The notes under the pieces: generated by a model | Databases searched by the model: none | Told to the model about the DNA's origin: nothing | Seen by the model: the letters and a program-made list of their open reading frames with translations, nothing else | Source of the DNA: Terriglobia bacterium | GTDB lineage: Bacteria > Acidobacteriota > Terriglobia > Terriglobales > Acidobacteriaceae | DNA length: 64,000 bases | Reading direction: 5' to 3' | Assembly (NCBI GenBank): GCA_020072645.1 | Contig: JAIQGK010000002.1 | Span: forward strand, 248,001-312,000 | Translations under genes and position numbers: made by a program | Shown here: piece by piece, positions 9,430 through 64,000 of the stretch | Layout of the letters: the number at the start of each line of letters is the position of its first letter | Numbering within the stretch: position 1 is the first letter of the stretch

Positions 9430-10538
9430 CATATTCCAGAAGCACAGCCCATTCTCCTTACATGGATTGGGCCAAACTGCATTCAGCGGCAAAATTCAAT
9501 CTTGCCACCAGCGGCGTGGCCAACTTTCTCTTAGCGAAACTTGGCGTGACCATTGACCAGTTGGAAATCAACGGCCCCTCGATCTATGGATACGAGCCGC
9601 TGCTTCAGGCGATCGCGCGCCGATATCGTATAGCCCAGGAATGCGTGGTCAGCGCCGTGGGAACGTCATTGGCAAATTACCTTGCGCTGGCCGCCACCAC
9701 TGAGCCCGGCGATGAAATCCTGGTCGAGCAGCCCACCTACGAACTGATTCTCAGCACCGCAAAATATCTGGGTCTTGCGATCAAGCGATTCCCGCGCCGC
9801 GCAGAAAATCATTTCGCCATCGATCCGGCCGACTTGGAACGCAATCTCACTCCGCGCACGCGCCTGATCGTCATCTGCAACCTTCACAATCCAACCGGCT
9901 CTCTTGTCCTCGACGACACGCTGCGCGAAATTGGAAACCTTGCTGCCAAAGTCGGCGCGCGCGTTCTGGTGGACGAGGTTTACCGCGAGATGTTGTTTGA
10001 ATCATCGCCTGCCAGCTCATTCCATATCAATCCTGAGCGCTTCATCGTTACCAACAGCCTCACCAAAGCCTACGGACTAAGCGGGCTGCGCTGCGGTTGG
10101 GTGCTGGCTTCACCAGAACTTGCCCGGCGCATGTTCCGCATCAATGATCTGCACGGCGCAACATTTGCTCATCCCGCTGAGCTGCTCAGCGTCATCGCTC
10201 TGCAAAAACTTCCACAAATCGCCGCCGAAATGAAATCCATGCTCGATACTAACCGTCGACTCTTGCATAGCTTCCTGCTCAAGCGCGACGATCTGGATTA
10301 CTTCTGGCCGGAATACGGGACCGTTGTCTTCCCTCGCCTGAAAAATGGGAATGTTGATTCCCTTTGCCAGTTACTGCGCAACGATTTTGAAACCAGCGTG
10401 GTTCCCGGCAGCTTCTTTGAGGATCCAAACCGGTTCAGAATGGGCGTCGGTATACCCACTGAATCTGTTCAGGCAGCCTTGCCGCAATTAGAGCGAGGTC
10501 TGAACAGCTACCGCGCGTCCTTACAAGTCAGCGCCTAG
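9426..10538 (+). CDS. Class I/II pyridoxal-phosphate aminotransferase
   Basis: A 370-residue fold-type I PLP enzyme starting at the ATG that overlaps the permease stop. Landmarks run in order: GYEPLLQAIARRY, the cofactor pocket AVGTSLANYLALAA, CNLHNPTGSL, VDEVYREML with the PLP-pyridine Asp, and the Schiff-base lysine in SLTKAYGLSGLRCGW. The C-terminal GVGIP block binds the substrate carboxylate. It resembles the aspartate/tyrosine/aromatic branch, but the exact amino acid cannot be read from sequence. Coupling to the permease suggests catabolism of an imported amino acid. It is convergent with doxX, only 5 bp apart. Confidence 0.88.
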   Translation: MTYSRSTAHSPYMDWAKLHSAAKFNLATSGVANFLLAKLGVTIDQLEINGPSIYGYEPLLQAIARRYRIAQECVVSAVGTSLANYLALAATTEPGDEILVEQPTYELILSTAKYLGLAIKRFPRRAENHFAIDPADLERNLTPRTRLIVICNLHNPTGSLVLDDTLREIGNLAAKVGARVLVDEVYREMLFESSPASSFHINPERFIVTNSLTKAYGLSGLRCGWVLASPELARRMFRINDLHGATFAHPAELLSVIALQKLPQIAAEMKSMLDTNRRLLHSFLLKRDDLDYFWPEYGTVVFPRLKNGNVDSLCQLLRNDFETSVVPGSFFEDPNRFRMGVGIPTESVQAALPQLERGLNSYRASLQVSA

Positions 10539-10543
10539 TAAGC

Positions 10544-10912
10544 TCAGCCTTTGTCCACTCCCCATTTGCCAGCGCCGCAGCAGGCGATAAACAGCGCGAC
10601 AAAGCAATAGATCACTGCCAGCTCGCCGCCATTTTTCAGCGGGGGAAAACCTCTTGGCTGGTGCACCATAAAATAAGCGACCGCCATTTCGCCGCTGGCC
10701 AGGAAAGCAGCCAGCGGTGTAAGTAATCCAATCAGGATGAGCAGTCCGCATACCAACTCAATCCCAGCGCCGGTCCAGCCCAGGACATCATTGGGTCTGT
10801 GGCCGCCAAACACGGTAAGCACTTTGCTTGCTCCGTGGCAGGCAAACAGGAATCCAAACACGATTCGTAGCGTGGCGTATGCAGTTGGTTCAAATTTCTT
10901 GAGAGCGTTCAT
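10544..10912 (-). CDS. DoxX-family membrane protein
   Basis: A 122-residue protein with four hydrophobic helices. The N-terminal helix contains RIVFGFLFACHGASKVL and is followed by a short loop and GAGIELVCGLLILIGLLTPLAAFLAS, the DoxX core pattern. The PRGFPPLKNGGELAVIYCF loop is also typical. Family members are linked to respiratory chain or redox functions, but a specific role cannot be assigned. It lies 36 bp downstream of metH on the same strand and could be expressed from the metH transcript. A second DoxX-like gene is at 46218. Confidence 0.85.
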   Translation of the reverse strand: MNALKKFEPTAYATLRIVFGFLFACHGASKVLTVFGGHRPNDVLGWTGAGIELVCGLLILIGLLTPLAAFLASGEMAVAYFMVHQPRGFPPLKNGGELAVIYCFVALFIACCGAGKWGVDKG

Positions 10913-10948
10913 CGCACTCCTTTAGTATGAATTGAAAATCAGAACCCA

Positions 10949-14416: not shown

Positions 14417-14602
14417 TTGTCTTAAATGTTGCGCCGCAAAATCGCGGCGCCTCAACTTGTCTTCGTGAGCGAGCGGCCCGGCCGTGGACCGAACGACCCA
14501 AACCAGGCGAAGCCTTCTCCTCAGTCAGGGTTCCCGCTTATTGTAAGGGTTACGATTCGGCCTTACCCTCTATCTCCCATTAGTCCTGTCGATTCCATTC
14601 CT

Positions 14603-14640
14603 GATCTGCGTATATCTGCGTTAATCTGCGGCGAGGTTCG
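14603..14640. repeat. Dispersed 'ATCTGCG' intergenic repeat copy
   Basis: Three tandem copies of a 10-bp unit of the type ATCTGCGTTA, then GGCGAGGTT. On the minus strand it reads AACCTCGCCGCAGATTAACG, the same family as the copies at 24069-24095 and 38677-38700. Confidence 0.65.
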
Positions 14641-14731
14641 GGGGTTTGAAACGGCGATCTTTACCTCCTGCCCCTCCCTTGGTATCCCACTGCATTCCAA
14701 GCCATCTCAGGATTGGCGTAGGTTTGTGAGG

Positions 14732-14767
14732 TGCACCCCCAGGGTCTCTGTCTCACTTTGGGGTGCA
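14732..14767. repeat. Inverted repeat TGCACCCC/GGGGTGCA
   Basis: A perfect 8-bp inverted repeat separated by 20 bp, with no T-run next to it, so it does not look like a terminator. It sits about 320 bp upstream of metH and could be a structured leader element or a repeat remnant. Confidence 0.45.
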
Positions 14768-15043
14768 GCACAAGGCCGCGCCCCATCCTCCCCCTCCACC
14801 TCAATTAGGATTCCAAAGCACTTAGCGCACATCATCCCAAGGGCATCCCAGACTCGAGATCACCACCACAAATGAGCCTAAACCACTGCAATTAAATGAG
14901 TTAATCTAGCATGAGGCACCACGAAAGTCAAGCGAAACGAGCACTGTTGGCAGGGAAAAGCAGGTCTCATCCCCCCTGCTCAGCTCACGTCTGATATCGC
15001 CACCCCATGCCCGGGCTGAATAAGAAATCATGAAATTTGCCCG

Positions 15044-15388
15044 TTATACCTTCAAGCGCCACAGAGGGACAATCTGCGCCCAGTGGCGCATCTCATGCAC
15101 CAGCACATGGACGATGATTTTCTTCGGCGTCACTCTCAGCACCGAATTCATCAGCTTGACCTCGAAAGGGACATCCCATTTCTCGACCGGAAACGCTTCA
15201 ACAAAACCTTTTAGCTCTCGCCGGGTTTCATCACCAAACTGGAAAAGCGCTTAAAGATTATCCACCGGCACGGAGCTTGTGTCGGTTAGGGATCGTCCCC
15301 CAGCCGCTCGACGTACCGGTAATCCGCGGAAAAATGTGCAATTCGCCTACGGTCGAAAAGCGACCGTCACCAAGATTGCTATGCCGCA
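15044..15388 (-). pseudogene. Decayed DinB-family gene
   Basis: No intact frame exists, but the minus strand holds a clear protein remnant. Codons 15250 to 15044 read through EAFPVEKWDVPFEVKLMNS and end HVLVHEMRHWAQIVPLWRLK, then TAA. The HE.RHWAQ block with its two histidines is the C-terminal metal-binding motif of DinB-fold proteins. Upstream, other frames give GRFSTVGELHIF and FSADYRYVERLGDDP, matching the middle of the same fold, interrupted by a stop and two frame changes. The N-terminal third is missing. This is a dead gene; no start codon serves the C-terminal piece. Confidence 0.6.
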
Positions 15389-15391
15389 TTT

Positions 15392-15470
15392 CTAATCAGT
15401 ATCATCCGTGTTCATCAAATGGTAAGGTTTCGGCTCTTCTCCGTGCCTCAGTGTCTGCGTGGCAGGTTTA
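15392..15470. repeat. Dispersed 'ATCCGTGTTCATC' and 'CCTCAGTGTCTGCG' repeat copies
   Basis: Two short modules lie side by side: ATCAGTATCATCCGTGTTCA followed by GGTAAGGTTT, and CTCCGTGCCTCAGTGTCTGC. Both belong to the direct-repeat families found in other spacers of this window. Confidence 0.5.
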
Positions 15471-15482
15471 CAATCTGTTGCC

Positions 15483-15977
15483 ATGAGATTCTTCCGTCGC
15501 TTACACCTGATTCTGTTCCTTGCCGCAGCAACGGCCGCCGGCTTTCTGGTCAATTCTGTTCACGCCGCCACACAGGCCTCGGTAGAGGCCCAAACCAAGG
15601 AAGCCCAGGCCGTCCTGGCTCCGATAACGGCAATGTTTGACGCCATGGCAAAACATGACGCGACGGCATTCAAGAAGCCGTTGCTGCCCGGCGGCGGCAT
15701 GGTGTTGATGCGCGACGGCAAGCCCACCCAATTGACCTTTGACGCTTTTGCCGACATCGTGGGCAAACCCGGAAAGGCACAGATTGAAGAGCGCATTCAC
15801 GATCCACTGGTGCGCATCGATAACGACCTGGCCGTGGTGTGGGCGCCGTTTGATTTCCTGGTGGACGGCAAGGTGGACCACTGCGGAACGGATTTGTTCA
15901 ATCTTGTCCGCACGGACGGCAAATGGGTGATTGCCAGCGTGGCAGATACTGGGCGGAAGGATTGTGTGGGCAAATAG
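15483..15977 (+). CDS. Secreted NTF2-like / lumazine-binding-like protein
   Basis: A 164-residue protein with a Sec signal peptide (MRFFRRLHLILFLAAATAAG, cleavage near VHAA). The mature part has the layout of the SnoaL/NTF2-like fold: an N-terminal helix with ITAMFDAMAKHDATAF, then strands with VRIDNDLAVVWAPFDFLVDG and a C-terminal DLFNLVRTDGKWVIASV. It resembles the 'putative lumazine-binding' family found in many soil bacteria, whose function is mostly unknown. Translation is better begun at 15483 than at the upstream in-frame codon 15459, because only the former gives a clean signal peptide. Confidence 0.8.
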   Translation: MRFFRRLHLILFLAAATAAGFLVNSVHAATQASVEAQTKEAQAVLAPITAMFDAMAKHDATAFKKPLLPGGGMVLMRDGKPTQLTFDAFADIVGKPGKAQIEERIHDPLVRIDNDLAVVWAPFDFLVDGKVDHCGTDLFNLVRTDGKWVIASVADTGRKDCVGK

Positions 15978-36360: not shown

Positions 36361-38619
36361 TTAGTGCCCAGCTTTCTCCAGATCCATTGCGGCTGAGTCA
36401 ATGACATCTGCGTAATCCTGTAACGCCTTTCCGACCCGGACGATTTCTTTGTCCGCTTCCTGATAGCGCTTTTCTTCGATTCCTTCACGCACTCCGGGAA
36501 GGGTCTTAGCGCCGTATCCTGTATAGAAGCCCGGTGCATAGATCAGGTGCTTGAACCACGGACGGCGCGGCAGGCCGTCTGGGTTGGTGAGTTTGCGCTC
36601 TGCCTGAATCAATTTGGCATTAAGTTCCTGCAGTTGCTGCGAGCCGCTGGCATTGTTGAATGTCTTCAGCGCTTTGGCGTAACGTTGCGCGCTGTGATCC
36701 AAAGCATTCTGCGCGTTATCAAGCGGGGCAAAGTTCAGGTATGGTGGGACCTCTTCCTTGGGCGGCGCGACAGTCGGCCTGCGCGGGTCGGAAACGGCGC
36801 TGTAAACGCCATCGTCTATGTCCTGGTTGCGATCGTGGATTTGCTCCTGCTTGTCCTTGAGCAGCTTCTTGAGTTCGTCATTGTATTTGTGGATGGTGTC
36901 GGCAAAATCGGCAAAGTCGTAAGGCAGCACATCGGAGTCGGCAAAGCGCAGCACCATGGTGCCAACGGTCTGGGAAAGAGCGCGCCCATAGACAAAGTCC
37001 TTATCGGAAAAATGGGTAAACCAATAGAAATCGTCGTAGATTGAGTGATAAATACCGCCGTCATCCTCGCCGCCAAAACCAACGTTGAGTGAAGCAACGC
37101 CGAGATGGTCGAGAAAGGTGGTGTAGTCACTGCCGGAACCAAGCGCGGCGATACGCAGATCGGGGCGGGTGCGCGCGTCCTTGCGATCTTCCGGGCGTCC
37201 CATGGTGAGGCGCGCTGCCTGTTCGCGCTTCCACACGGAAATGTTCTTTTCCGGATCGGTAATGTCACGGGCCACGGTGTTGACGAATTTTTCCAGTGAG
37301 TGCGAACCTTCCACGCCAAGAAAGCCGCGGCCATTGCCATCAGTATTGATGTAAAGAGCGGCGTGTTGCTTGAGTTCGTCGCCGTGGTACTCAGCCCATT
37401 CTGTCGATCCCAGCAGCATGGGCTCCTCGCCATCCCACGCGCAATAGACGATGGTGCGTTTGGGCTTCCAGCCCTGCTTGAGCAGCGTACCCAGTGCGCG
37501 CGCCTCTTCCAGCAATGCGATCTGGCCAGAGATGGGATCTTCCGCGCCGTTCACCCAGCCGTCATGGTGGTTGCCGCGCACAATCCACTGATCAGGAGAT
37601 TCCGAGCCTTGGATCTTGAAAACCACGTCATAGACCGGCTTGATGTCCCAGTTGAAAGCCACTTTCAGGTGGACCTTAGCCGGGCCGGGGCCTACGTGAT
37701 AGGTGATAGGAAGCGCGCCGCGAAAACTCTCCGGAGCTACCGGGCCTTTGATCGCCGCGAGTAGCGGCTTGGCATCACCATAAGAAATTGGCAGCGTAGG
37801 AATCTTGGTGAGCGTGGTGATGTCTTTGAGTGCCAGGCGTTTTACGTCGCCCTTGGAACCGACGCCGGGCGTGGTGGGATCGCCGGGATAGATGGGCATG
37901 TCCATGACGCTGCCGCGCTGCACGCCATTCTCATTGCGCATGGGGCCGTCAGGAAAAACATCGTCCTGGAAGTAGCCATCATCGCGGGGATCGGAATAAA
38001 TGATGCAGCCGATTGCGCCGTGCTCCGCAGCGATCTTGGGCTTGATGCCGCGCCATGAATTGCCATATCGGGCAATCACGATTGCGCCTTTTACGGAAAC
38101 GCCGAGACGGTCGAGCTCCTCGTAATCCCGCTGCAGGCCATAGTTGACGTAAACCAGCTTGCCGGTCACATCGCCGTCTATGGAGTAAGCGTTATACGTG
38201 GGCAGTTGCTCGCTCTGCTGATTTGACGTGGGGTCGCCAGCTACGGGCGGCTCCTGCAACTTGGCGGTGTAGCGCGTCGGCTCCGTCAGTTCCAGTACGC
38301 GCTCTTTAGGCGTAGGAAAAAGCACATCGAATTGTTCAATCTGCGCGTCGAGTCCCCAGGACTTGAATTGCGAGAGGATCCATTCAGCATTCTGCTTGTC
38401 ATAGGGCGAGCCCACGTGGTGGGGACGCGCACTAAGCTGCTGCATGTAGTCGCGAAGGTTTTTAGGGTCGGGGATGGCGCGAAACTTATTTTCCCAATCA
38501 CGCTCTGTGTGCGACGTGGCAGAGGTGAAGCCGAAGAGAGCATCGTCATCAAAGTTAGCGGCGGAAAGAGGCAGCAGGGCGATCAGGCAGATAAGGGCGA
38601 TGAACAGAACTCGGCGCAT
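36361..38619 (-). CDS. M28-family metallopeptidase, glutamate carboxypeptidase II type
   Basis: A 752-residue exported protease. The ATG at 38619 has a GGAG site 10 bp upstream and begins a signal peptide (MRRVLFIALICLIALLPLSA). Domains in order are as follows. A PA domain (about 120-320) carries VNYGLQRDYEELDRLGV and IVIARYGNSWRG. The di-zinc peptidase domain (about 330-580) has RGNHHDGWVNGAEDPISG, WDGEEPMLLGS and NTDGNGRG. A C-terminal helical TFR-like dimerisation domain closes the chain. This three-domain order is that of prostate-specific membrane antigen. It should trim acidic peptides or peptide ends in the periplasm. Confidence 0.92.
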   Translation of the reverse strand: MRRVLFIALICLIALLPLSAANFDDDALFGFTSATSHTERDWENKFRAIPDPKNLRDYMQQLSARPHHVGSPYDKQNAEWILSQFKSWGLDAQIEQFDVLFPTPKERVLELTEPTRYTAKLQEPPVAGDPTSNQQSEQLPTYNAYSIDGDVTGKLVYVNYGLQRDYEELDRLGVSVKGAIVIARYGNSWRGIKPKIAAEHGAIGCIIYSDPRDDGYFQDDVFPDGPMRNENGVQRGSVMDMPIYPGDPTTPGVGSKGDVKRLALKDITTLTKIPTLPISYGDAKPLLAAIKGPVAPESFRGALPITYHVGPGPAKVHLKVAFNWDIKPVYDVVFKIQGSESPDQWIVRGNHHDGWVNGAEDPISGQIALLEEARALGTLLKQGWKPKRTIVYCAWDGEEPMLLGSTEWAEYHGDELKQHAALYINTDGNGRGFLGVEGSHSLEKFVNTVARDITDPEKNISVWKREQAARLTMGRPEDRKDARTRPDLRIAALGSGSDYTTFLDHLGVASLNVGFGGEDDGGIYHSIYDDFYWFTHFSDKDFVYGRALSQTVGTMVLRFADSDVLPYDFADFADTIHKYNDELKKLLKDKQEQIHDRNQDIDDGVYSAVSDPRRPTVAPPKEEVPPYLNFAPLDNAQNALDHSAQRYAKALKTFNNASGSQQLQELNAKLIQAERKLTNPDGLPRRPWFKHLIYAPGFYTGYGAKTLPGVREGIEEKRYQEADKEIVRVGKALQDYADVIDSAAMDLEKAGH

Positions 38620-38676
38620 GCAGGAACTCCTATGAACAAGAACGGAATTGTATATCTTCGCAGCCATGACAAAAAG

Positions 38677-38700: not shown

Positions 38701-38888
38701 AAGCCCTTATTGAAGAAGGATTCGTCTTCGAGGTTAGGAGCTTATTCCGATGTCAAACCCTTGAATAACCGGCTGCCCGATGGGAAACGGGCCAGTGACC
38801 GGCGTCACGGCAGGCAGGGTTACGGTGCGTGGATCATAGAAGCAGAGGATGAATCCTTTAGCCCCGCAGCCGGGACGGGAGGAATGCG

Positions 38889-39926
38889 ATGAATCTCACA
38901 ACAATCCACAAACAGCGGGCCATGATGCAACGCTCCAGCTTGATGAGCGAACGCCCGCACGAGCGCATTGGTCTCTGGTATCTTCTGATTGCGATTACGT
39001 TGTTGCTGCTCTTCTCGGAAACGGGCAGGCCACAGGAGCCAGGCAAAGCGCAGCCGCAAACGAGCTCCACGGCCGTTGTTCCGGTCACCGTGACCGTGTC
39101 AGTAGAAACGAAGCATGGGAAGGATTTTCCCGTGATTTACCGCGAGGATGTGCGGGTCTTTCAGGGAAAGGAACGGTTGAAAGTCACGCAGTGGGTCCCA
39201 GCGGAAAAAGACGGAGCCGGGCTGGAGTTGATGGTGGTGGTGGACGACGCCTGCGATACCCATGAGGTCGGGCAGCAGCTCAGGGACCTGCGCAAGTTCA
39301 TTCTGGCGCAGCCGCCAGAAATGGCCATCGGCGTGGGCTACATGAGCAACAGCAATGTGCGCATCCTGCAAAACCCGACGAAAGACCATGCGCGCGCAGC
39401 CAAATCCGTGCGGCTGCCCATGGGCCGGACCGCCGCGTATTCCAGCCCCTACCTGGCGATTACCGACCTGATCAAAGGCTGGCCGGACATTGGCGACCGC
39501 CGCGTTATTTTCATGGTGTCGCCGGGAATTGACGGCATGGAATCCGGCCCCACCAATCCTTATCTGGACAGTGCCGTGGAACGCGCGCAAAGGGCCAAAG
39601 TCTCCGTCTCTTCCATTTACTGTTCCGGCGCAGTCTTCAGCAATGGCATGCTGGACTTTGGCCAGAGCAATCTTCTGAAGATGGCGGACAGGACGGGCGG
39701 CGAGGCCTATTTTCAGGGATCGCACACGCCCTTGTCTTTCACCCCATATTTGCGGAAGTTCAGCGACCGTCTGGGACACCAGTACAAGCTGACGTTCCTG
39801 GCTTTTGCCGAAGAAAAGGACACGACACAGCATATACGGATTGAAACCGAGGTCCCCGGCGTGGAGCTGGAAGGGCCAGCTCGGGTGAGAATACCGGGCG
39901 TCAAGCGGGAAGATAGCGGCGATTAG
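38889..39926 (+). CDS. VWFA-related acidobacterial-domain protein (TIGR03436-like)
   Basis: A 345-residue exported protein. The N-terminus is long and polar before a hydrophobic stretch (RIGLWYLLIAITLLLLF, residues 27-43), so an internal start such as the ATG at 38922 is possible. The mature part begins with two beta-strands in the pattern VPVTVTVSVETKHGKDF, then a von Willebrand factor A-like domain, LMVVVDDACDTHEVG. The metal-ion site DxSxS of VWFA domains is degenerate here (DDACD). This layout matches a family named after Acidobacteria. Its partners are unknown; a role in surface assembly is likely. Confidence 0.82.
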   Translation: MNLTTIHKQRAMMQRSSLMSERPHERIGLWYLLIAITLLLLFSETGRPQEPGKAQPQTSSTAVVPVTVTVSVETKHGKDFPVIYREDVRVFQGKERLKVTQWVPAEKDGAGLELMVVVDDACDTHEVGQQLRDLRKFILAQPPEMAIGVGYMSNSNVRILQNPTKDHARAAKSVRLPMGRTAAYSSPYLAITDLIKGWPDIGDRRVIFMVSPGIDGMESGPTNPYLDSAVERAQRAKVSVSSIYCSGAVFSNGMLDFGQSNLLKMADRTGGEAYFQGSHTPLSFTPYLRKFSDRLGHQYKLTFLAFAEEKDTTQHIRIETEVPGVELEGPARVRIPGVKREDSGD

Positions 39927-39933
39927 AAACGAA

Positions 39934-39970
39934 GCCTACCACGGATTGACGCGGATTGACGCGGATCAAG
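39934..39970. repeat. Dispersed 'ACGGATTGACGCGGATTG' copy
   Basis: CCACGGATTGACGCGGATTG followed by ACGCGGATC: three tandem units of about 10 bp. It lies at the left edge of the AT-rich pseudogene region. Confidence 0.65.
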
Positions 39971-40164
39971 ATCGGGTGGTCTTGACTTGCAATGAGCCGA
40001 TCCGAGGCTTCGTCGGCAGAGTGTGCGGTGGGGCTGCAGCAGGAGAAGTAACGGGCGTATGCAGAAGCTCCTAAGCGGTTTCGGGGATGGCAAGGGAAAC
40101 AATTCCAAATTAACAAGCGTAAGCCTTAGAAGGCCAATGATTTATTTGGACATCCATGTACGCA

Positions 40165-41991
40165 TCAGGATGGGTCACGCCAAATCTGCCACCACCGCCG
40201 ATTTTGCGAGGTATTAGATTGTGGCAAATGATCATCCTTTGTTTCTTCAGGCGTAGCGACAGACGATTCATCGTCTGACAACGGACGGCTGGACGCCAAT
40301 GGTGAATACCCATTTTTCTTGAGTTGCTCGACCGCGAACTCAACAAATCTCTGCGATTGCCCTTGCTTTTCCGGTTGTTACTCCTTTCTATACTGCGACG
40401 ATCCATGCATCGCTTAATGTGCGCTGAAAGAGCACCGACATCGTGCGCTGAGGGATTTTGGCCCGTCAGTGCAATAAGATCAGCTGGTTGATAGTCTGTT
40501 GCTTTTAGCTTTTGGCACACATACAACAACGCAATATGAAACTTAAACGGTCTAAATCGTTTCCGCTTCCGCAGGAGTACATCGAGGGTCTTTGAGATCT
40601 CAACACACACGAGGTACACTCGCAAGTCCCACCCCTACATTGAAAATCTTTTGATACTCCAGATCTTCCCGCATCCAACGTGTTTTCTGTTTCAAAGCTG
40701 CGGCTGGGTCTCTCCACACTAGAGCTCGGACAGCCGACCCAACATACGAAATTGAAACGATTTTATCAGCTGGACACCTTGATTTTTGTAGTGATTTTTT
40801 CTCCTGTCGTAGTACCAGCCTTTGTCACCAAGAAAATGCTCGATATTCCTTTGAAGCGTGTCCGTAGCGCGTAACGACGCTATCTCGACGCCATTTTGAT
40901 AATTCGTAGTTTGATAATTTTGTCGCGAATTTCTTCGTCTTGCATAATGATTATCTTTATCAAAATCGCGCGTTGGTCGGTATCTATGCGGCTTTCTATG
41001 AAATATTTATGAATTGTTTCGGTCGGCTGTAGACCGTTAACTCTGCACATTTTCAAGATGAAGCTCTTTGCCTGTAATCAACGCAGTTGAAGCAAGCAAT
41101 GTAATACCATTATTTAGCCATCAAAAATCTGGTGCTGCTTGACGCTGCTGAAGGGTTGCCATAATGTCGCGATTTACCTGTACATCGCCAAGATAGTCGC
41201 GCACATTGGCTTCGAACAAATAACGACGGAGGCGTTTATCGTCGTCTGTAATAAACTTAAAATAAGAATCCAATGGGCTCAGGATTACATAGTTTGTCTT
41301 GTCCCTCGAAATGTTGTTCTCGACGAAACCCAACCTTAAGGAATAAGTACGCTCGCGCCTCGCCATCTTCAGCAATTCGGCCGCGCCTGAGAACTCAAAC
41401 TTACCCGTACGTTGCTGAACATTCCGCTCACTTGTTGCTCAAGTTGTTTCGCTCGCGATGTTATGTTGGGGTTTATTCGGGTTGTATCACCACGACTGGC
41501 ATAATTTACACGAATGTGAAGTGTGGGGCTTTTCGAAGCCGACCCGATGTAAGTAGATTTGAATAATTCGCGCGCCGTCTTATTATAATTGCATCAGCAA
41601 AGGGATAAGTGAGTTCGGCGCCTTCTTTGCGCAAGTCGAGGACATCCGGCAAAGAGCTAATCAGGTTGTTAATCGGCACCTGTTTGAATTGCTCTCCGTG
41701 TTTAGCCGTGATGATTGCTAATTCAAGATGAGGGGACCTACGAATCGACCCGAATTCGGGATCCTCTGTTACAACTTTACCATCCAGAAGCAAGTAAAAC
41801 CCGTCAATGCCACCGTCATCTCCGCTGTCGGTCCAGCCGTTGTCCAAGTCCTCATAGGACAACTCAGCATCCTTGAGTATCTGGTCAATCGTGAATAACT
41901 CGAAGTACTCCGAGGGTTCGTGCTCAGCTCCATATCAGCTGGAATTTTTAGCGATTAAGCTATCTAAAAGAACGACGTCGTTGATTGACAT
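40165..41991 (-). pseudogene. AIPR-family abortive-infection phage-resistance gene, multiply disrupted
   Basis: Read on the minus strand with frame changes, the region encodes an AIPR (PF10592) protein of normal length, about 609 codons. It starts at the ATG at 41991 (MSINDVVLLDSLIAKNSS). A TGA interrupts codon 19, then the frame continues through SYEDLDNGWTDSGDDGGIDG. Later fragments, each in another frame, give YASRGDTTRINPNITSRAKQ, FEFSGAAELLKMARRER, LFEANVRDYLG, VNRDIMATLQQ, a TGA in place of Trp before WLNNGITLL (41121-41123), VNGLQ, ASLRATDTLQRNIEHFLGDK, GWYYDRRKNHY and ALLYVCQKLKATDYQPADL. Frame breaks lie near 41507, 41402, 41041, 40910, 40772, 40630 and 40372. It is clearly inactive, and visibly AT-richer than its neighbours. 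Confidence 0.85.
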
Positions 41992-42018
41992 CTGTCCTTG
42001 TCTACCCGCCCAATATCT

Positions 42019-42066
42019 TTAGCTGCCATTTAGACGATCAAGTATTGCGGTAACAATTTTAAAGCT
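42019..42066 (-). other. Possible C-terminal remnant of a lost gene upstream of AIPR
   Basis: The minus strand reads ISFKIVTAILDRLNGS then a stop, just before the AIPR start, 27 bp away. The peptide looks like the end of a helical protein, and a stop codon lies directly upstream. It could be the last piece of an operon partner removed by deletion; 16 codons are too few to be sure. Confidence 0.25.
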
Positions 42067-42101
42067 TATCTACCGTTAGAAAAAGAACTTATCTTTGATT
42101 C

Positions 42102-42536
42102 TCAGATGCGCGAATAATCCGGACGCGAGTCCGTGATGGCTTTTTTGATGTCGGAGCGACTCAGTTTTTCATCGATCGCGCGCTGGAAGAGAGCGGGCAG
42201 TTCCGCGTCCGAGGCAAAGCGCAGCCCCACGATCTGCGAATCCGAGAGTTCTGCGATACGCGAGCGTAAAGGCTCGGGCAGGATGGCGGCCAGGCGAATA
42301 CGCTCTTCCATGCGAATCACACGGTCCTGAAGGTGCGTGGCCCAGTTGCGCAAGCGCGCGGCAAGTACAAATAAGGCCAGCGAGACAAGCAGCAGCCATA
42401 CACCGCCGATTCCGGGATGACCCAACAGAAGAAAGCCAACAACGAAAATGTTGATCAGCAGCACCGGCAGAACAAAAAAATGAAAAGCCGGATCGAACTT
42501 GGCATGGCTGGCATACGATTGCGGTTTATTGGACAT
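42102..42536 (-). CDS. DUF6526 membrane protein
   Basis: A 144-residue protein. I place the start at the ATG at 42536, behind GGAG (TAGGAGACCC), because MSNKPQSYASHAKFDPAFHF is the conserved family start; the frame is open 78 bp further. Two membrane helices follow (FFVLPVLLINIFVVGFLLL and GGVWLLLVSLALFVLAARL), then a cytoplasmic helical part with DRVIRMEERIRLAAILPE and SDSQIVGLRFASDAELP. The family is widespread in Acidobacteriota and Bacteroidota and has no known function. It marks the right border of the AT-rich region. Confidence 0.85.
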   Translation of the reverse strand: MSNKPQSYASHAKFDPAFHFFVLPVLLINIFVVGFLLLGHPGIGGVWLLLVSLALFVLAARLRNWATHLQDRVIRMEERIRLAAILPEPLRSRIAELSDSQIVGLRFASDAELPALFQRAIDEKLSRSDIKKAITDSRPDYSRI

Positions 42537-42684
42537 GGGTCTCCTATAGCAATATGAAGTGTACCGGAGTAGATGGATGCGCGCGGGGAAGCGATGCAGA
42601 AAAGAGAGAGTCAATGATCCGGCTTTGTCGAGGCGAACAAATTACGATATTATAATCTGCGCAAAAATGGATCCCAGGAATGAT

Positions 42685-51446: not shown

Positions 51447-51580
51447 TTGAACCACAAAGGACACAAAGGAACATGGAGGGAAGATTGGCAGAATTGCCAA
51501 AGATCGGCGGAATTGAAAAAGCAAAACTACCGCGGATTCACACGGATGAACGCGGACCAGAAAAAACACATACGGAGAAC
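51447..51580. repeat. Cluster of three dispersed repeat families
   Basis: ACCACAAAGGACACAAAGG (51451-51469), TTGGCAGAATTGCC..GGCGG (51485-51515) and ACCGCGGATTCACACGGATG followed by AACGCGGACC (51529-51558) lie next to each other. Each is also seen in other spacers of this window. Confidence 0.7.
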
Positions 51581-62966: not shown

Positions 62967-63226
62967 CTGCGCTCAGCTTCTTTCATCTCCTCAATTCTTT
63001 TCTAGCGATTTTTAACGATCTCTGAGTTCGAAAATTGAGGCTTCAATCCACGTAATTTTGGCACTTTCGACGGTACTGGCAATCTTCCTTCAATTACTCT
63101 TCAGTAATACGGCTGGAAAGCCACTGTGGTTCCAAGCTTTTAGACGGCCAAAAGGCCGAATTGTCCCCTCGACAAGCTCGATAATTAAGGTATCTTTTCG
63201 CCCTGATAGAGAACGCTTGATTCCTG

Positions 63227-63556
63227 CTATCTTTGCGGAAGACCCTGCTGGTACTGCTCGATAATGTTGCGGATCGCCACCGCGTCTGCTTTGCTGTGAC
63301 CGTGGCTCAGGATGGGATTGCTGCCGCCGGTGGAATCAATGCGGATATCCGACCAGAGCATTCCCGTGCTGATCAAAACCGAGGCGACCTTGGTGATGGG
63401 AATGCTTTCCTCTGAGCTGCCAAAGAACCGCGGCTTGATTCGCAACACCCGTTCCGGACTCACTTCAATACGAGTGGGAAAGAGTAAGTTACCGCGAGTC
63501 CAGCGGCTGGCCTTGAATACTCTGCTTGAAGTGGATGTAAGCGGCGCGGTCGACAT
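63227..63556 (-). CDS. Small PH-like protein
   Basis: A 109-residue protein with strands FPTRIEVSPERVLRIKPRF and SIPITKVASVLISTG, then IRIDSTGGSNPILSHGHSKA and a final amphipathic helix (ADAVAIRNIIEQYQQGL). This strand-strand-helix order resembles bacterial PH (bPH_2-like) domains, which bind lipids or proteins. No signal or membrane helix is seen. It lies 36 bp downstream of pgsA on the same strand, so they may be one transcript, which would fit a lipid-related role. Moderate confidence in the family only. Confidence 0.7.
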   Translation of the reverse strand: MSTAPLTSTSSRVFKASRWTRGNLLFPTRIEVSPERVLRIKPRFFGSSEESIPITKVASVLISTGMLWSDIRIDSTGGSNPILSHGHSKADAVAIRNIIEQYQQGLPQR

Positions 63557-63592
63557 GACTTTATTTTATCTTGAACTGCCGGAATCGCGGTC

Positions 63593-64000
63593 TTAATGCG
63601 CTTTAGCTGGATTATTCGCTTCGGCTTCCTGCATCGCCTTCTTCTTGCGCCGACTCAGGATAAACGGACGCCGCCGGCGCCGCTCCACCCTTTTATCAAT
63701 CTTCTTCCAGAAGCCCCAGAAGTAATCCACAGCCGAAATCAATGACACGGCCACCATGAACCATATGGCCATGCGCGCTACCAGGTCCACGTCTAGCACA
63801 AACGAGAATACCCGCAGGTTGAAATACCACGTGTCCCAGCGCAGGGCCAGTATAGTCGCCACTACTGAGACAATCTGCACCACCATTTTGAGCTTGCCCA
63901 GTTCGCTGGCTTCAATGGTAAAGCCTTCTGATGCCGCAATCGACCGCAGGCCGCTGATCAGGAATTCCCTGCCGATAATCAGCACCACCACCCATATATT
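63593..64000 (-). CDS. pgsA: CDP-diacylglycerol-glycerol-3-phosphate 3-phosphatidyltransferase (C-terminal part)
   Basis: Cut by the right edge; about 135 codons are visible. REFLISGLRSIAASEGFTI is the conserved block of PgsA that follows the catalytic CDP-alcohol phosphotransferase motif, which lies outside the window. Three hydrophobic segments follow, then a basic tail (KKIDKRVERRRRRPFILSRR). The enzyme makes phosphatidylglycerophosphate from CDP-diacylglycerol and glycerol-3-phosphate in the inner membrane, the first step to phosphatidylglycerol and cardiolipin. The PH-like gene follows 36 bp downstream. Confidence 0.88.
   Translation of the reverse strand, partial: NIWVVVLIIGREFLISGLRSIAASEGFTIEASELGKLKMVVQIVSVVATILALRWDTWYFNLRVFSFVLDVDLVARMAIWFMVAVSLISAVDYFWGFWKKIDKRVERRRRRPFILSRRKKKAMQEAEANNPAKAH

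Follow-up and report, generated by a model that had tools for sequence, protein, structure and literature searches.

An interrupted abiU gene in an Acidobacteriaceae genome and its empty site in same-genus relatives

A close known system for the gene described here is presumably AbiU1 of Lactococcus lactis, which was reportedly described in 2001. AbiU interferes with RNA transcription according to the figure legend of a review (PMC9952470), and in passages of a 2012 paper AIPR proteins are stated to carry an N-terminal HEPN domain and AIPR/AbiU to be frequently associated with restriction-modification; AbiU2 is listed in a passage of a 2013 HEPN survey. Defence genes are gained and lost faster than average, as a passage of PMC5379612 puts it, and for other defence systems pseudogenes have already been published (a passage of PMC8791490), therefore the abiU locus presented here illustrates a known process and opens no new one. 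A literature search returned no title on an AbiU pseudogene among the matches listed.

The locus lies on contig C2 of a genome of 6.4 Mb, within an analyzed stretch of DNA of 64,000 nucleotides which is called the window in the following; its features are listed in Table 1. It is a genuine but ordinary AbiU pseudogene, AbiU being a known single-gene defence against phages. We are highly confident in the reading that an abiU gene arrived with a segment of about 3.3 kb gained by transfer and was then inactivated fairly recently; its ancestor may have been a nuclease under ParB-like control. With an empty site in relatives, approximate bounds of the insert and conserved residues in place, the locus represents a clean case of gain and loss.

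Table 1. Features of the abiU locus and its surroundings (positions in the window)
Feature	Position	Strand	Remark
AbiU (AIPR-family) pseudogene, full length	40165..41991	-	two in-frame stops and seven frame changes
AbiU reading bounds	ATG at 41991, stop at 40167-40165	-	three-frame translation
In-frame stop codon 1	41935..41937	-	three-frame translation
In-frame stop codon 2	41121..41123	-	falls in conserved FWWLNNG block
AbiU profile 1-176	41440..41982	-	native-frame piece, E 7.6e-29
AbiU profile 166-301	41043..41462	-	native-frame piece, E 1.2e-42
AbiU profile 303-341	40910..41041	-	native-frame piece, E 1.2e-8
AbiU profile 342-522	40362..40910	-	native-frame piece, E 1.7e-26
Stretch equivalent to predicted PD-(D/E)XK-like domain	41340..41991	-	approximate, inferred; alignment and fold of intact relative
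Segment absent at same site in five same-genus genomes	38778..42101	.	approximate bounds
Left junction copy	38753..38777	.	matches ~25 bp at DUF6526 gene end in G539
Right junction copy	42102..42127	.	end of DUF6526 gene
VWFA-domain gene, open, inside inserted segment	38889..39926	+	TIGR03436, 41 bits, below cut-off 81
Right flank gene, DUF6526 (PF20136), open	42102..42614	-	ORF and Pfam
Left flank gene, M28 peptidase, open	36361..38667	-	ORF and Pfam

Identity of the gene and state of its reading frame

By three-frame translation a single protein was found scattered across three minus-strand frames, with seven switches of the best frame, which together with the two in-frame stops amounts to nine breaks in the copy. 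The original prediction of a full-length AIPR gene on the minus strand, with its motifs in order, two nonsense codons and about seven frameshifts, agrees with this result: the motifs were recovered in the same order, both stops stand in frame and seven changes of the best frame were counted. Against the AbiU profile of PADLOC-DB (PDLC02357, 537 positions) four collinear native-frame matches spanning positions 1-522 were obtained without joining, and their E values of 1e-8 to 1e-42 exclude chance. The search across frames against Pfam AIPR (PF10592) that had been proposed as a check yielded two native-frame pieces above the cut-off (E 9.7e-9 and 9.7e-6), besides the four pieces given in order by the AbiU profile.

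For a read-through of the whole copy the frames were joined with X at the breaks. The read-through scored 502.9 bits against the AbiU profile over positions 1-514, a score that is not independent because the frames were joined by us; it falls within the 409-568 bits of the 11 family copies of AbiU that are uninterrupted. Distant AIPR relatives in the family score 136 bits or less against this profile and, where they appeared among the profile matches, were left out of the AbiU counts. Against PF10592 the read-through reached 114.1 bits, well over the cut-off of 25, the domain spanning only residues 257-466. As judged by its full-length match to the PADLOC model, the locus can be named more precisely than AIPR, namely AbiU. 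The copy in the window differs from the PADLOC-DB model in its stops and frame changes and from PF10592 in the lack of a single open frame, and its identity to the uninterrupted AbiU of its own family amounts to 20-30% for 10 of the 11 and to 39% for L180. Profile searches of the host genome at E 0.001 gave no second AIPR or AbiU match. When four open pieces or neighbours of the region were scanned singly, just one reached AIPR, below the cut-off; for annotators it follows that remnants of defence genes can be missed if only open frames are scanned.

A working gene was taken to consist of one ORF of roughly 560-660 codons, and no such frame is present in the copy. The minus-strand open pieces found within the region (84, 118 and 171 aa) and the almost unchanged conserved residues would suit fragments that still function as separate peptides or through recoding. 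We regard this as scarcely conceivable, as the 11 uninterrupted copies of the family all use one frame and as, to our knowledge, no known recoding goes as far as two stops together with seven shifts of frame that run in both directions.

The conservation of the pseudogene was measured by comparing the read-through with 26 uninterrupted relatives, leaving out the columns with X. The read-through departs in a single invariant column (34 of 35 kept) and in five near-invariant ones (73 of 78 kept), and the intact relatives themselves depart, in a leave-one-out comparison, in 1.0 and 3.5 columns on average and in 5 and 12 at maximum. Because so few substitutions occur at conserved places, the inactivation looks recent as far as the sequence can tell.

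Residues conserved as in a working gene are also what indel errors would leave, and sequencing error can yield the same combination of many indels with little amino-acid damage. That the breaks are errors of assembly or sequencing within an intact gene is nevertheless very improbable in our view, since seven frame changes in 1.8 kb would require an error confined to this spot. Open frames are preserved in the neighbours, namely the M28 peptidase (768 aa), DUF6526 (170 aa), a glycerol-kinase-like gene (548 aa) and a gene named TPR-like by eye (510 aa), and four flanking coding stretches were compared with the same-genus genomes G539 or G508, four of the five comparisons being without a frame-changing gap. 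Two one-base gaps of the M28 gene against the DNA of G539 resulted from misset bounds; the protein match is gapless over 1-768. With the flanks open and in frame, an error rate that broke abiU seven times would therefore have to be local. Homopolymer runs of 5-6 bases number five in the pseudogene, fewer than the breaks, and the two stops are not frame changes at all. Stretches of more than 1 kb without a kept ORF of at least 150 aa also occur elsewhere in the window, at 9430-10948, 14456-15500 and 62967-64000.

Predicted fold and putative mechanism

The fold was predicted for an intact relative, L233, of which two AlphaFold models were used, one of all 560 residues (mean pLDDT 83.8) and one of the first 216 residues (91.6), and both were compared with solved structures by VIA-align 2 and Foldseek. 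With VIA-align 2 the N-terminal model found FokI at the top (Z 9.4, 152 residues, rmsd 3.8 Å), followed by Avs4, MspJI, N.BspD6I, AspBHI and HamA with Z 6.2-7.8, most Z values lying in the range in which the program warns of common arrangements; with plain Foldseek neither of the two models reached a significant match. Unrelated proteins are present in the lists as well (RNA polymerase subunits with Z up to 5.7, CD38 with about 4), therefore only the top rows carry weight. The first ~213 residues of the L233 model account for the likeness to PD-(D/E)XK endonucleases (FokI, MspJI, the nuclease part of Avs4 and others), and all three residues of the presumed catalytic site (D, D and K) are retained in the read-through. 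This likeness is set against an identity of only about 11%, the missing Foldseek match and the loss of the K in some intact relatives: this residue is absent in two of the 26, one of them L242, and also in L176, L177, L179, L186 and L194. Two positions before the K, the copy in the window and 11 of the 26 relatives have T, and the other 15 have Q. The N-terminal model is mixed alpha-beta; the cited passage of the 2012 paper names a HEPN domain at the N-terminus.

Residues 227-369 of L233 align with ParB-like domains (PadC, ParB, SspE) over up to 98 residues, with Z values of 4.4-6.2 that may mean only a common arrangement. On the basis of these models, intact AbiU may combine a nuclease-like effector part with a ParB-like domain that regulates it. 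The ancestral AbiU would accordingly have been a nuclease with a PD-(D/E)XK-like domain, controlled by the ParB-like, possibly nucleotide-binding, AIPR domain; upon phage infection it would act on nucleic acid and halt phage growth, perhaps with the cell being sacrificed.

Inserted segment and empty site

The M28 gene was searched in the host genome and in eight others of the genus. Three of these eight could not be used, as no DUF6526 gene was seen beside M28 in G485 and G551 and the contig of G576 ends within the site. In all five genomes in which M28 and DUF6526 are adjacent the site is without abiU, the spacing being about 110 bases in G539, 247 in G508, 115 in G257, 76 in G524 and 53 in G564, so that there is no room for abiU or for the VWFA gene that accompanies it. 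The comparison with related genomes that had been recommended for this locus thus brought up five empty sites, and together with a copy broken nine times they favour the earlier claim of a gene acquired and then lost.

In G539, the nearest same-genus genome with an empty site (about 85% DNA identity), the alignments of the left and of the right side of the window share ~25 bases where the DUF6526 gene ends. None of about 20,000 random 28-mers of the window fits this empty site as well as the left junction copy does. Compared with each other, the left and right copies of the window give a match that is equalled by 811 of about 20,000 random 28-mers; because the two copies no longer match each other significantly, the case for the junction rests on the left copy and the empty site of G539. 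These alignments are most simply explained if about 3.3 kb was inserted, in a single step or in several, and the junction was duplicated. No pair of inverted repeats was seen at the ends of the insert, and no tRNA was found in the 64-kb window.

An ancestral abiU at this site, lost from the relatives rather than gained in the host, would be compatible with the uninterrupted genes in 11 of 398 family genomes, which make an old presence somewhere in the family possible. We judge such a course highly unlikely, given that all five usable same-genus sites have short junctions of 53-247 bp, that both ends of the insert match one stretch of ~25 bp in G539, the pattern expected after an insertion, and that the other genus members searched hold no AbiU-grade match (136 bits or less). 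In the preferred reading, gain in the host, horizontal transfer would have brought the segment between the DUF6526 and M28 peptidase genes with a functional abiU, which would then have been inactivated fairly recently on the host branch, so that no full protein would be made now.

The AT-richness stated earlier was confirmed, with a GC content of 46.0% in the pseudogene vs 56.2% and 56.9% in the two flanking stretches and 55.1% in the window. AT-richness alone does not demonstrate transfer: each of 16 AbiU genes compared, of which 12 come from Acidobacteriota loci and three from plasmids and one is truncated, was GC-poorer than its own flanks, the difference ranging from 3 to 18.5 points, so that low GC, on these compositions, is a trait of the AbiU family and only weak evidence of transfer. 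Gain is better supported by the empty site.

As the loss, whether by drift or by selection against the gene, would have followed the gain, it would postdate the split from G539. An attempt to date it from the stops was abandoned, as two stops correspond to about 51 substitutions in the gene with a range of 6-186, which is too wide. In a nucleotide search of 120 family genomes no close relative of the pseudogene was found among the matches listed; the non-self matches among these cover about 18-116 bases at E 0.005 or worse, two of them falling inside the AbiU genes of G419 and G416.

Within the genus, the best relative of the insert's VWFA gene is found in G564 (53% identical), and matches at E 1e-30 or better occur in 70 of 150 family genomes, the host included. 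G257 has a relative of this gene that is divided into two adjoining parts, each in an open frame of its own (G257:C23:24459-25069). An interspersed repeat of the form CGCRGATTNACGCRGAT has one of its copies at 39940-39966, in the interval that separates the pseudogene from the VWFA gene; it is also found at 14604-14630 and 51531-51547. The repeat has five matches in the window with up to two mismatches vs 0.21 expected, and ten exact matches genome-wide vs none for the reversed pattern.

AbiU in the family and on plasmids

AbiU profile matches at E ≤0.001 were detected in 52 of the 398 family genomes, and the 11 uninterrupted genes consist of single open frames of 570-663 codons; an AbiU-bearing contig is also present in family genome G681. 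Split or truncated AbiU away from contig ends was found in at least five genomes: besides the host these are G464 (split over two frames), G233 (C-terminal part only), and G492 and G084, in which about 130 and 95 residues are left. Fragments in G482, G533, G073 and G439 touch or lie near contig ends and were not counted as broken, and the one in G073 (contig C25) also has a frame change. These observations may tentatively be read as a boom-and-bust of AbiU in the family, the gene being gained singly at scattered sites and inactivated time and again owing to the cost of a nuclease-like effector that stands idle, an idea which we consider rather doubtful.

From the search of genome contigs the best 80 of 394 relatives, ranked by likeness to L180, were kept. 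The closest among these 80 are L242 (Bryobacterales) and L233, both uninterrupted, both from Acidobacteriota MAGs and both about 47% identical to the copy in the window; given this ranking, a closer relative may exist. Relatives were found in 53 of 72,556 plasmid records, which fits a transfer on mobile elements, and a search of viral contigs with six peptide patterns found none.

A conserved partner gene was considered and dismissed, no neighbour family occurring in more than three of 20 AbiU loci, several of which are short or cut by contig ends; none of the 20 holds a relative of the insert's VWFA gene. The earlier remark that the pseudogene has no intact partner says little, since with such neighbourhoods a fixed partner is not expected. 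A DNA methyltransferase near the AIPR gene was seen in two of four plasmid neighbourhoods viewed (L106 and L107, from Azospirillum and Arthrobacter, with a cytosine methyltransferase few genes away).

Genes of one family of ~320 aa adjoin three uninterrupted AbiU (L176, 8931-9908; L182, 6073-7053; L194, 8551-9513). By eye we take them to be IS1595-type transposases, and they may be carriers of AbiU. L192, L193 and L195, which hold AbiU remnants or AbiU cut by contig ends, have neighbour genes in common pairwise (clusters 11-13), and a common insertion region is possible for these three.
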